DNA of 54,366 nucleotides from Frankiales bacterium (GTDB lineage Bacteria; Actinomycetota; Actinomycetes; Mycobacteriales; SCTD01): assembly GCA_025465135.1 (NCBI GenBank), contig JAODNA010000007.1, positions 1 to 54,366 on the forward strand. Direction: 5' to 3'. The notes beneath the pieces are model-generated. The model searched no databases. It saw nothing but the letters and a program-made list of their open reading frames with translations, and had not been told where the DNA came from. This document shows positions 15,100 to 21,597 of the stretch, one piece after another (the first letter of the stretch is position 1; every line of letters starts with the position of its first letter). A program made the position numbers and the translations under genes.

Positions 15100-17400
15100 G
15101 TGAGCCCGATGTCCGCCGCTCCCTCCGGGCAGAAGGCTGCCCAGGAGGCCTCCCTCCGGCGCTTGCACGCCCTCGTCCGAGGGATCAACGGCGACCTCGA
15201 CCTGGACCGGACCCTCGAGGCGGTCACCAGCGGCATCGTGGAGGGCCTCGGCTTCGAGGTCACCGTGATCAACATGGTGCAGTCCGACGGCGACTTCGAG
15301 GTCGTGGCGGTTGCCGGCTCGGACGAGGCCCGCGAGACCCTGCTCGGCCAGCGGGGGCAGCGGGCCGAGTGGGAGCGCTGGATGTCCTTGTGCACGCCGG
15401 TAGGCGCGCTCCTCGTCGACTACCGCCGCCTCGTCGATGACGGCTCCGACGTACCGACCTGGGTGCCGGACCGGCCCATCAGCGATGACGAGGACGCCTG
15501 GCACCCCCTGGATGCCGTGATCGCTCCGCTGAGGACGTCGCGTTCCGGGCTGCTCGGCACGCTGAGCGTCGATCTGCCGCGCGACGGGCGGCGGCCCACA
15601 GCAGAGACACTCGAGCTCCTCGAGATGTACGCCGCACAGGCCAGCGTCGCGATCGAGAACGCCGCGCTGCACACCGCGCTGGTCACCCGTGACGCCGAGC
15701 GCGAGCAGGCCCTCGGCCGTCTCACCGCGGTGCTGGGCGAGGTCCCTGCGGCGATCCTCGAGGTCGACCTCGACGGCCGGATCCGCACCTGGAACCCCGC
15801 GGCCGAGGAGATGTTCGGCTGGTCCGCCGACGAGGTGATCGGCAAGATCAACCCGACGGTCGACCCGGACGGCTACGACGCAGGTCTGGCCGAGCTCAAG
15901 CGCGGGCAGGTCGACCACCGCCAGTCGGGCCGTCGCCGGCGCAAGGACGGCAGCATGCTGGACGTCGAGATGTCCTCGGCGGTGCTGACCGACGCCGAAG
16001 GTGATGCGTTCGGCTACATCGGTGTGATCTCCGACGTGACCCACCGGGTCGCCATGGAGCGGGAGCTGCGGCACGCCGCGTTCCACGACCCGCTGACCGG
16101 CCTTGCCAACCGGGCCATGCTGCGGGACCGCCTCGACCAGCTCTCCGGCAGCGCGAAGGTCTCGCTGCTGCTGCTCGACCTCGACGGGTTCAAGGCGGTC
16201 AACGACTCACTCGGGCACGAGGTGGGCGACCAGGTGCTGCTGGAGGTGTCGCGGCGCCTCGCGCGCAGCTGCCGGCCCAGCGACCTGCTCGTCCGGCTCG
16301 GCGGTGACGAGTTCGTCGCCCTCGTCGAGGGCGACCAGGAACGCGCGATCACCCTCGCCGACCGGTTCCTGCGGATCCTGTCCGAGCCGATCGCGCTGTC
16401 GGACCGCGACGTGGCGCTCGGCTGCAGCATCGGCATCGCCTCGCCGTCGGAGCACGGCGCCGACAGCGCCCTGCGTGACGCGGACATCGCCATGTACGTC
16501 GCCAAGAGCAAGGGCAAGGGCCGGTACCAGGTGTTCGCGCCGGCGCTCCGCGACAGCGTGCTCGACCGAGCTGCGCTCTCCGACGACCTGCGGTCGGCGG
16601 TCGCCGGAAACCAGCTGACGCTCCGCTACCACCCCGTCATCGACGTGAAGACGCGCGCCGTCGTCGCGTTCGAAGCGCTGCTGCGCTGGAACCACCCGAC
16701 GCGCGGTGAGCTCAGCCCGCTGCTGTTCATCCCGCTCGCCGAGGAGAGCGGCGTCATTCACGAGATCGGCGACTGGGTGCTGGTCGAGGCCTGCAGCGAG
16801 CTGCGCCGGATGCAGACCGACGTCCTCCCCGAGAACAGCAGCATGACCGTCAGCGTCAACCTGTCCGCGGTCCAGCTCCACTCGGCGGGGCTGGTCGAGC
16901 GCGTGCAGCAGATCCTTGCGGAGACCGGCCTCGAGCCCCGGCGACTCGTCCTGGAGCTCACCGAGTCGGTCCTGGTCGAGGACGTCGAGGATGCGGTACG
17001 GGTGCTCGGCCGCCTCCGGTCGATCGGCGTCCGGCTCGCACTCGACGACTTCGGGGCCGGCTACTCCTCGCTGCGCTACCTCAAGCGGCTTCCCTTCGAC
17101 ATCGTCAAGCTCGACAAGGGCCTGCTCGACGGCGTCGACCGCGACCCGGCCGCGCTGGCCCTCGCCGACGCGGTGCTCGGGCTGCTCAACCGACTCGGGC
17201 TGCGGACCTGCGCTGAGGGCATCGAGACGGCTGCGCAGCTGGCCGTCGTCGAGTCGCTCGGCTGCGAGCTGGGCCAGGGGTTCCTCGTCGCGAAGCCACT
17301 GCGGCCCGCCGAGCTGCACAGCCTGCTGGTCGACGGCTGGCCGGCCCCACCGCTGCCGGCGCAGCGCGACGGACGCGTCAAGGCCATCGATCCCGCCTGA
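15100..17400 (+). CDS. GAF-PAS-GGDEF-EAL cyclic-di-GMP turnover protein
   Basis: RPSDLLVRLGGDEFVALVE; FEALLRWNHP; LDDFGAGYSSLRYLKRLPFDIVKLDK. Confidence 0.92.
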   Translation: MSPMSAAPSGQKAAQEASLRRLHALVRGINGDLDLDRTLEAVTSGIVEGLGFEVTVINMVQSDGDFEVVAVAGSDEARETLLGQRGQRAEWERWMSLCTPVGALLVDYRRLVDDGSDVPTWVPDRPISDDEDAWHPLDAVIAPLRTSRSGLLGTLSVDLPRDGRRPTAETLELLEMYAAQASVAIENAALHTALVTRDAEREQALGRLTAVLGEVPAAILEVDLDGRIRTWNPAAEEMFGWSADEVIGKINPTVDPDGYDAGLAELKRGQVDHRQSGRRRRKDGSMLDVEMSSAVLTDAEGDAFGYIGVISDVTHRVAMERELRHAAFHDPLTGLANRAMLRDRLDQLSGSAKVSLLLLDLDGFKAVNDSLGHEVGDQVLLEVSRRLARSCRPSDLLVRLGGDEFVALVEGDQERAITLADRFLRILSEPIALSDRDVALGCSIGIASPSEHGADSALRDADIAMYVAKSKGKGRYQVFAPALRDSVLDRAALSDDLRSAVAGNQLTLRYHPVIDVKTRAVVAFEALLRWNHPTRGELSPLLFIPLAEESGVIHEIGDWVLVEACSELRRMQTDVLPENSSMTVSVNLSAVQLHSAGLVERVQQILAETGLEPRRLVLELTESVLVEDVEDAVRVLGRLRSIGVRLALDDFGAGYSSLRYLKRLPFDIVKLDKGLLDGVDRDPAALALADAVLGLLNRLGLRTCAEGIETAAQLAVVESLGCELGQGFLVAKPLRPAELHSLLVDGWPAPPLPAQRDGRVKAIDPA

Positions 17401-17427
17401 TCGCGGGACACGGGTCGGACGCTGGAG

Positions 17428-17433
17428 TAGCGT
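17428..17433 (+). promoter_or_regulatory. Putative -10 hexamer TAGCGT for the cimA leader
   Basis: Ends 8 nt before the leader ATG; GGGACA 17 nt upstream is a weak -35 candidate. Confidence 0.4.
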
Positions 17434-17441
17434 CTGCCGGG

Positions 17442-17477
17442 ATGAGCCCGGCCACGATCATTACGCGAGCGCGCTGA
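17442..17477 (+). CDS. Putative cimA leader peptide MSPATIITRAR
   Basis: ATG-initiated 11-codon ORF with tandem Ile codons (atc att), directly followed by hairpin and terminator before cimA. Confidence 0.7.
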   Translation: MSPATIITRAR

Positions 17478-17495
17478 CGACGATCGTCAGCGCGC
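17469..17495 (+). promoter_or_regulatory. cimA leader hairpin (candidate pause/antiterminator-type stem)
   Basis: Perfect 10-bp inverted repeat GCGCGCTGAC (17469-17478) / GTCAGCGCGC (17486-17495), spanning the leader stop codon. Confidence 0.65.
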
Positions 17496-17533
17496 AACCC
17501 TCCCTGCCTTCGGCACGGAGGGTTTTGTCTTTC
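17496..17533 (+). terminator. Intrinsic terminator in the cimA leader
   Basis: AACCCTCC-C-TGCC-TTC-GGCA-C-GGAGGGTT stem followed by TTGTCTTT, ending 12 nt before the cimA start. Confidence 0.8.
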
Positions 17534-17544
17534 CTGGAGAAGCG

Positions 17545-19137
17545 ATGAGCACGCCCACGGATGCCTTCCACGTCTACGACACGACCTTGCGCGACGGTGC
17601 GCAGCGCGAGGGCATGTCGCTCTCGGTCAACGACAAGCTGGCGATCGCCCGCCACCTGGACGACCTCGGGGTCGGCTTCATCGAAGGCGGCTGGCCGGGA
17701 GCCAACCCCAAGGACACCGAGTTCTTCCGGCGCGCCCAGTCCGAGCTGAGGCTGCGCACCGCGCAGCTCACCGCCTTCGGCTCGACCCGGCGGGCCGGCG
17801 GCGATGTCGTCACGGACCTTGCGCCGCTGCGCGAGTCGGGTGCCGGCGTCGTCTGCATGGTGGCGAAGTCCGACGTCCGTCACGTCGAGCGGGCCCTGCG
17901 CACGACGCGCGAGGAGAACCTCGCCATGATCCGCGACTCGGTCAGGCACCTGCGGGGCGAGGGGCAGCGCGTCTTCCTCGACGCCGAGCACTTCTTCGAC
18001 GGCTACGTCGCGGACCCGTCGTACGCGATCGAGGTGCTGCGTACGGCGGCGGAGGCCGGCGCGGACGTGGTCGTGCTCTGCGACACCAACGGAGGAATGC
18101 TGCCGCACCGCCTCGCCGAGATCGTCAACGACGTCGTCGGGACTGGGCTTCGGGTCGGTATCCACGCGCACAACGACGCGGCGTGCGCGGTCGCCAACTC
18201 GCTCGCCGCGGTCCATGCGGGTGCCACCCATGTGCAGGGGACGGCAAACGGCTACGGCGAGCGCTGCGGCAACGCCGACCTGTTCAGCATCGTCGCGGCG
18301 CTCGAGGAGAAGGACGGCCGCGAGGTGCTCCCGGCCGGCCGGCTGGTCGAGCTCGGCCGGGTCGCCCACGCCGTCGCGGAGGTCGCCAACATCGCTCCGG
18401 ACCCGCATCAGCCGTGGGTCGGCGCGAGCGCGTTCGCGCACAAGGCGGGGCTGCACGTCAGCGCGATCAAGGCCGATCCCGACCTCTACCAGCACACCGA
18501 TCCGGCCGTCGTCGGCAACGACATGCGGCTGCTCGTCTCCGAGCTCGCGGGTCGCGCGACCATCGAGCTCAAGGGCCGGGCCATGGGCCTGGAGCCCGAC
18601 CGCGCTGCCGTCGGCCGGGTCATCGAGCGGGTCAAGGACCTGGAGTCGGTCGGCTACTCGTTCGAGGCTGCGGAGGCGTCCTTCGAGCTGCTGCTGCGCG
18701 AGGAGATGGGCGAGCGACCCCATTACTTCGACCTCGAGTCCTGGCGGGTGATCGTCGAGCACCGCCAGGGCAAGGACGGCGCGGACGGCCAGGTGGTCTC
18801 CGAGGCGACGGTGAAGCTGCATGCCAAGGGTGAGCGCATCGTGGCGACCGGCGAGGGCAACGGCCCCGTCAACGCTCTCGACAACGCGCTGCGGCGAGCG
18901 CTGGAGAGGCTCTACCCGGGGCTCGCCGCGCTCGAGCTGGTCGACTACAAGGTCCGCATCGTGAGCGGTGCGCACGGCACCGACGCCGTCACGCGGGTCC
19001 TCGTGGAGACCTCCGACGGCACGAGCGAGTGGGACACCGTCGGCGTGCACGAGAACGTCATCGCGGCGTCCTGGCAGGCGCTCGAGGAGGCCTACACCAC
19101 CGGCCTGCTCCGCGAGGGGGTCTCCTCGGACAGCTAG
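17545..19137 (+). CDS. cimA: (R)-citramalate synthase
   Basis: 530 aa; YDTTLRDGAQREGMSLSVNDKL; GIHAHNDAACAVANSLAAV; HKAGLHVSAI. Confidence 0.92.
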   Translation: MSTPTDAFHVYDTTLRDGAQREGMSLSVNDKLAIARHLDDLGVGFIEGGWPGANPKDTEFFRRAQSELRLRTAQLTAFGSTRRAGGDVVTDLAPLRESGAGVVCMVAKSDVRHVERALRTTREENLAMIRDSVRHLRGEGQRVFLDAEHFFDGYVADPSYAIEVLRTAAEAGADVVVLCDTNGGMLPHRLAEIVNDVVGTGLRVGIHAHNDAACAVANSLAAVHAGATHVQGTANGYGERCGNADLFSIVAALEEKDGREVLPAGRLVELGRVAHAVAEVANIAPDPHQPWVGASAFAHKAGLHVSAIKADPDLYQHTDPAVVGNDMRLLVSELAGRATIELKGRAMGLEPDRAAVGRVIERVKDLESVGYSFEAAEASFELLLREEMGERPHYFDLESWRVIVEHRQGKDGADGQVVSEATVKLHAKGERIVATGEGNGPVNALDNALRRALERLYPGLAALELVDYKVRIVSGAHGTDAVTRVLVETSDGTSEWDTVGVHENVIAASWQALEEAYTTGLLREGVSSDS

Positions 19138-21417: not shown

Positions 21418-21489
21418 TGGGGTATGGGGTAATTGGCAGCCCGACGGTTTCTGGTTCCGTTAGTCTTGGTTCGAGTCCAGGTACCCCAG
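21418..21489 (+). tRNA. tRNA-Gln (CTG anticodon)
   Basis: TGGGGTA/TACCCCA acceptor stem; GTTTCTGGTTCC anticodon arm; GGTTCGAGTCC T-arm. Confidence 0.93.
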
Positions 21490-21515
21490 CGTGTCACCCA
21501 CAATTCAACAAGCAC

Positions 21516-21588
21516 GGCCCCGTCGTCTAGCGGCCTAGGACGCCGCCCTCTCACGGCGGTAGCGAGGGTTCGAATCCCTTCGGGGCTA
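21516..21588 (+). tRNA. tRNA-Glu (CTC anticodon)
   Basis: GGCCCCG...CGGGGCT acceptor (G1-U72 wobble); CGCCCTCTCACGG anticodon arm; GGGTTCGAATCCC T-arm. Confidence 0.93.
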
Positions 21589-21597
21589 CGTATGGTG

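Follow-up and report, generated by a model that had tools for sequence, protein, structure and literature searches.

The leaders closest to the one analysed here precede actinobacterial genes of branched-chain amino acid metabolism. A 2005 survey of actinobacterial leaders covered trp, cys, ilvB, leuA, leuS, trpS and ileS, with cimA not among them (PMC1262725), and the set of eight leader peptides of Streptomyces lividans, in the accessible portion of that report, has none for cimA; its IlvL was mapped by RNA-seq and is transcribed leaderless (PMC8079986). According to the available text on the Mycobacterium tuberculosis ilvB1 leader, changing its LVVI codons to AAAA abolished induction (PMC13236596), and for a Corynebacterium ulcerans ilvB-II reporter the available text gives higher expression in minimal medium (PMC10272879). 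A contrary result comes from S. coelicolor, in which changes of the ilvB control codons are reported to have had no effect (PMC1262725).

Here we describe a leader upstream of cimA in a stretch of 54,366 nt from a Frankiales bacterium, the whole of which we call the window. Citramalate synthase, the cimA product, is the first enzyme of a threonine-independent route to isoleucine. We conclude, with a probability of roughly 0.86, that the cimA leader is a ribosome-mediated transcription attenuator sensing charged tRNA-Ile. The recurrence of this device across the Actinomycetota, with codons matched to the downstream gene, strongly suggests that it would switch cimA on when isoleucine runs short. 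The same interpretation had been put forward in a preliminary description of this DNA, and it is supported by the analysis below.

Parts of the cimA leader

The region between the upstream gene and cimA contains the following features.

17405..17410, + strand: weak -35-like GGGACA hexamer, spaced 17 bp from the -10 element; assigned by consensus match alone, the promoter scan having given no score
17428..17433, + strand: putative -10 element TAGCGT (actinobacterial TAnnnT), from sequence; relatives such as L141 and L166 have similar hexamers at equal distance from the leader start
17442..17477, + strand: leader ORF MSPATIITRAR*, predicted to be leaderless; same-genus leaders are MTPVTIIARRAD (G003) and MTRLVIIRRRAD (G001)
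17457..17462, + strand: control codons ATC ATT (Ile-Ile); II in 57/65 and III in 22/65 cimA leaders
17469..17495, + strand: hairpin P1, 12 bp with loop CGA, enclosing the leader stop TGA (17475-17477)
17496..17524, + strand: P2, an intrinsic terminator hairpin directly adjoining P1 (0-nt gap)
17523..17532, + strand: terminator T-tract TTTTGTCTTT, from sequence
17536..17539, + strand: cimA ribosome binding site GGAG, from sequence
17545..19137, + strand: cimA, citramalate synthase, 530 aa (NCBIfam TIGR00977, 627.8 bits versus a cut-off of 450)

The leader ORF, the -10 element, both hairpins and the T-tract had all been proposed upstream of cimA in the preliminary description, and each was found at the position given for it there. 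P1 had been called a perfect 10-bp hairpin over the stop codon: the stem is indeed perfect (17469-17480 pairs with 17484-17495) and the stop lies inside it, but its length is 12 bp.

The leader ORF reads ATG AGC CCG GCC ACG ATC ATT ACG CGA GCG CGC TGA. A transcription start 6-8 nt 3' of the hexamer at 17428-17433 would make its mRNA essentially leaderless, and the spacing between -10 and ATG would fit leaderless transcription. Among 230 short ORFs (8-20 codons, both strands, whole window) the cimA leader ORF is the only one with tandem Ile codons. The upstream neighbour is a co-directional c-di-GMP gene ending at 17400. The folding check suggested earlier gave a clear result, the RNA of 17400-17560 reaching -80.5 kcal/mol (z = -3.65), far stabler than shuffles, with 0/200 as stable.

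Conservation and codon content across Actinomycetota

We scanned genome contigs with CimA and inspected the regions upstream of the cimA loci thus obtained. At related loci, short ORFs that end in II or III stand in front of two equivalent hairpins. In an alignment of 32 cimA leaders, compensatory changes occur in 10 of 19 pairs, and the observed covariation was matched in 0/500 shuffles; the covarying stems anticipated for related cimA leaders are thus present in both P1 and P2. A wider alignment of 95 leaders, from several genes and several classes, has two-sided changes in 18 of 19 pairs (314 versus 65.5 in shuffles, 0/500 as high), with 94.3% of cells paired and compensatory change in all 10 modelled P1 pairs; it was fitted to the model and so leans towards structure, whereas the alignment of 32 (A1) was not so fitted.

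A covariance model, R1, was built from the 32 cimA leaders, window included. It finds the window at E = 1.6e-9, a value that is not independent, the window being one of the 32 training leaders, and it has matches in 51 of 61 related genomes. The search over more than 40 genomes used strict filters, and at least three genuine ilvB leaders were missed (SLLVVP-type, in relatives with no match). Under these filters, 32 of the 50 cimA genes in the set of relatives have a leader and 18 have no leader match. The leader is absent where cimA lies directly behind ilvE or another pathway gene, and also at the closest CimA of the contig scan (L004). In the same-genus genome G002 (L202), the region upstream of cimA is bare: the same kind of c-di-GMP gene precedes it, without an attenuator. 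Genome G001 gives an ambiguous picture: a leader stands at the end of one contig, and on another a cimA behind a c-di-GMP gene (L201) has none. L202 and L201 look like natural losses of the attenuator behind the c-di-GMP gene, and are potential controls.

Tandem-Ile cimA leaders reach the orders Streptosporangiales, Pseudonocardiales and Micrococcales, and in other actinobacterial classes two such leaders stand in front of cimA (L074, MKSLSASEIIIIC, ...EIIIIC*; L233, MSASIIIIA*). A Nitriliruptorales cimA (L049) has an upstream ORF ending TIIIRPLP, for which the ORF alone was read. The preliminary description would have fallen had relatives lacked a conserved short ORF with Ile codons; run as a test, this instead returned tandem Ile in 57 of 65 cimA leaders. 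Its suggestion that Thr codons form part of the sensor fared differently, since they are present in the window yet not conserved among leaders, leaving Thr sensing unsupported. Overall, conservation makes the strongest case against a chance origin of the cimA leader.

Judged by eye, positions 1158-27090 of the window form a branched-chain cluster (ilvC, serA, leuA, leuB, ilvE, cimA, gltX, leuC), with tRNA-Gln and tRNA-Glu accompanying gltX at 21418-21589. Within this cluster only cimA has an R1 match in front.

Although R1 learned from cimA leaders alone, its matches, the training set counted in, divide into 65 in front of cimA, 41 of ilvB, 9 of leuS and 2 unclassified. The ilvB and leuS leaders share the P1-P2 architecture of the cimA leaders, and the codon run differs. 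Leu/Val runs (Leu-Val-Val and similar) are found in 41/41 ilvB leaders, with II in 1/41; all nine leuS leaders have Leu runs (Leu-Leu-Leu; LL in 9/9), with II in 0/9. Nothing supports a sensor role of the codons more strongly than this natural swap. Moreover, the Ile spellings ATC and ATT interchange freely among leaders while the first two bases are fixed, the pattern expected if selection acts on the amino acid. ATT accounts for 71 of 147 Ile codons (48%) in cimA leaders versus 33 of 861 (4%) in cimA genes (p = 5.5e-42); rare codons are likewise enriched in ilvB leaders (GTA) and in leuS leaders (CTT).

Different versions of the leader coexist within genomes. The window's own genome has a second two-hairpin leader, before ilvB, encoding the peptide VRLFVVVS (L114; G000:C22:1308-1389, minus strand). 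Two Streptomyces-like genomes, G083 and G164, encode an ilvB leader peptide, MRTRILVLGKRVG, identical to S. lividans IlvL; the cimA leader of G083, VLSFATIIGSRRAGPQ, lies 16 kb from the ilvB leader, and that of G164, VSSFVMIIGSRRAGPQ, is on a different contig from it.

The leader family may reach further branched-chain genes. In other classes, R1 matches (L175, L183, L190 and others) precede leuA-like genes (LLLT, ALLLL) and one leuB-like gene (VVII), named by eye. Several further matches were noted. Val-rich leaders with P1-P2 precede ORFs resembling isochorismatase-family hydrolases, an unexpected target, in two genomes (L185, L234; G099, G110). In G018, a cimA-type Ile leader, MSPTTIIARRVV (L120:631-714), stands in front of a 105-aa protein other than CimA; by eye the protein has an ACT-domain (IlvM-like) look, with no Pfam match. 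A weaker R1 match in G108 (L195/L237, E = 1.6e-4) has a strong P1-P2 and precedes an isocitrate lyase-like ORF.

Proposed switching mechanism and its alternatives

We propose that transcription would begin no more than 2 nt from the leader ATG, and that the leading ribosome would translate MSPATIITRAR while RNA polymerase proceeds through P1 and P2. With ample isoleucine, the ribosome would reach the stop inside P1 and leave, P2 would fold, and transcription would end before cimA. Under a shortage of charged tRNA-Ile, it would stall at ATC-ATT, termination at P2 would fail, and cimA would be transcribed. We infer the direction of this response, read-through upon starvation, by analogy with M. 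tuberculosis ilvB1 and the Corynebacterium ilvB-II motif.

The geometry of the leaders bears on how a stalled ribosome could act. The distance from the start of the last control codon to P1 is 8 nt in 37/64 cimA and 9/9 leuS leaders, and usually 7 or 8 nt in ilvB leaders. The leader stop codon sits at the foot of P1 or inside its 5' arm. From this arrangement of stop and control codons, a ribosome that has completed the leader would cover the P1 5' arm, and a stalled one would reach the foot of P1 alone. P1 and P2 adjoin without shared bases in almost all leaders, the gap being 0 nt in 57/64 cimA and 8/9 leuS leaders.

In a classical three-hairpin attenuator, the stalled ribosome would allow an antiterminator that competes with P2. 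This alternative concerns the last step only and would leave the leader an Ile attenuator; we regard it as possible, at clearly less than even odds. Antiterminators have been proposed, in the accessible texts, for C. glutamicum ilvBNC, where H2 overlaps the terminator by three bases (PMC11857589), for ilvB-II, where the P1 loop pairs with the P2 3' arm (PMC10272879), and for M. tuberculosis ilvB1 (PMC13236596). In some cimA leaders, that of G059 (loop ACCTCCCCG) among them, the P1-loop pairing could form. Against an antiterminator stand the lack of shared bases between P1 and P2 and the behaviour of both candidate pairings, neither of which does better than shuffles. For the P1 3' arm against the P2 5' arm, cimA leaders give a mean of -2.9 kcal/mol versus -18.3 for P2, no better than in dinucleotide shuffles (z = +0.3). 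The ilvB-II type pairing, P1 loop with P2 3' arm, has a mean rank of 42 among 100 shuffles, not above composition, and is effectively absent in the window, with only -1.0 kcal/mol. We thus found no trp-type, mutually exclusive antiterminator among the two arm pairings tested with minimum-energy models, which could miss a short-lived kinetic structure.

Because neither pairing beat shuffles, we favour, as a best guess for the last step, a switch that would need no antiterminator. P1 would serve as a bridge that places the stalled ribosome by the foot of the flush-stacked P2: with P1 closed, about 5 nt of RNA would lie between the stalled codon and the P2 foot, and a ribosome there would block closure of the last base pairs of P2. 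A ribosome advancing to the stop codon would open P1 and restore the distance to P2. In Escherichia coli, terminator efficiency fell from ~90% to <10% with the stop codon shifted from 28 bp to 5 bp ahead of a terminator (PMC4824070), a result that we count for the bridge step. A broader hypothesis would make the cimA, ilvB and leuS leaders one phylum-wide family regulating termination without an antiterminator, via the P1 bridge, in which a ribosome advance of two to five codons to the stop opens P1 and frees the terminator, and specificity is set by exchangeable control codons alone. We put this forward tentatively and consider it doubtful in its full extent.

Three further rival explanations were weighed. 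Control could act on cimA translation or mRNA stability instead of transcription termination: just 12 nt separate the T-tract from the start of cimA, bringing ribosomes and hairpins near the cimA ribosome binding site. We think this improbable, as P2 with its T-tract is a textbook intrinsic terminator, conserved as such, at a distance to cimA that varies from 14 to 411 nt. P2 could also be a mere terminator of the c-di-GMP gene, with the Ile ORF a chance occurrence and cimA on another promoter; P2 does follow that co-directional gene, and in G002 cimA lies behind a like gene without a leader. This is very hard to reconcile with an ORF-P1-P2 unit that stays with cimA across differing upstream genes and orders, the Ile ORF always in front, and a terminator of the upstream gene needs no ORF, P1 or fixed spacing. 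Equally far-fetched is an RNA that binds a ligand or a tRNA (riboswitch or T-box) and has an incidental ORF, to which the very conserved P1 5' bases GCGCG of cimA and ilvB leaders might point: Rfam gave nothing for this stretch of the window at E up to 1 and nothing relevant for ten relatives, these P1 bases lie in pairs that covary among more distant leaders, and the codons track the downstream gene, which a ligand-binding RNA does not need. A strictly invariant sequence of the P1 base, considered as a sign of a binding site, was rejected: the base of P1 covaries in distant leaders and in leuS.

On the attenuation reading, the threonine-independent isoleucine route in Actinomycetota would be controlled at a specific point that can be tested, also in Streptomyces-like genomes, whose published leader-peptide list, in its accessible part, omits cimA. 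With cimA, ilvB and leuS leaders carrying different codons on a shared RNA scaffold, the logic of sensing is open to direct test: a leader given other codons should respond to another amino acid. No antiterminator being detectable across more than 100 leaders, the question of how these actinobacterial attenuators switch is reopened.

Relation to described attenuators

We found no report of a cimA leader or attenuator in the searchable literature, which covers open-access sources only, so that its absence there is no proof; this agrees with the earlier remark that an Ile attenuator of cimA is not known to have been described, and none was found in Rfam. Nor does a cimA leader appear in the accessible parts of the papers on S. 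lividans, C. glutamicum, ilvB-II and M. tuberculosis (PMC8079986, PMC11857589, PMC10272879, PMC13236596).

The LEU element of leuA is a pseudoknot whose base stem pairs the Leu codon run with the Shine-Dalgarno box; the cimA leader has a terminator instead. The ilvB-II motif and the C. glutamicum ilvBNC attenuator, so far as the available texts go, resemble the cimA leader in having an upstream ORF that spans P1, followed by a terminator P2, and show higher expression in minimal medium (PMC10272879, PMC11857589); they differ in their proposed antiterminator, not found in cimA leaders, and are described for Corynebacterium and for ilvB. The M. tuberculosis ilvB1 attenuator is alike by description, the portion of the report at hand giving an upstream ORF with branched-chain amino acid codons, an intrinsic terminator, and control codons needed for induction (PMC13236596). 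In a family without cimA (f8), the one readable ilvB leader (L224) has a different P1, and R1 gives no match.

The nearest relatives are the Streptomyces and actinobacterial ilvB leader (IlvL) and the Streptomyces leuS leader (LeuL2), compared here with the accessible published data (PMC1262725, PMC8079986). The ilvB leader is found by R1 and agrees with the cimA leader in P1-P2 layout and control-codon position; it differs in its Leu/Val codons, as against Ile, and in its gene, acetolactate synthase. The leuS leader likewise shares the R1 match and the layout, and leuS leaders found here, such as VSTAARLLLPSPR, resemble LeuL2, MRAVRLLLSEPR, as given in the available text; the differences are Leu codons, the P1 bases GCCGCGC/GCGCGGC, and an aminoacyl-tRNA synthetase gene downstream. 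As in these leaders, the short ORF has a run of codons whose amino acid belongs to the regulated pathway (tandem Ile in the window and 57/65 cimA leaders), and P1 lies at or after the control codons, followed by an intrinsic terminator between promoter and gene. An antiterminator having been sought in two candidate pairings and not found, we do not file the cimA leader as a classical three-hairpin attenuator; we place it among the actinobacterial branched-chain leader-peptide attenuators of the ilvB/leuS type, as an addition to a known group.
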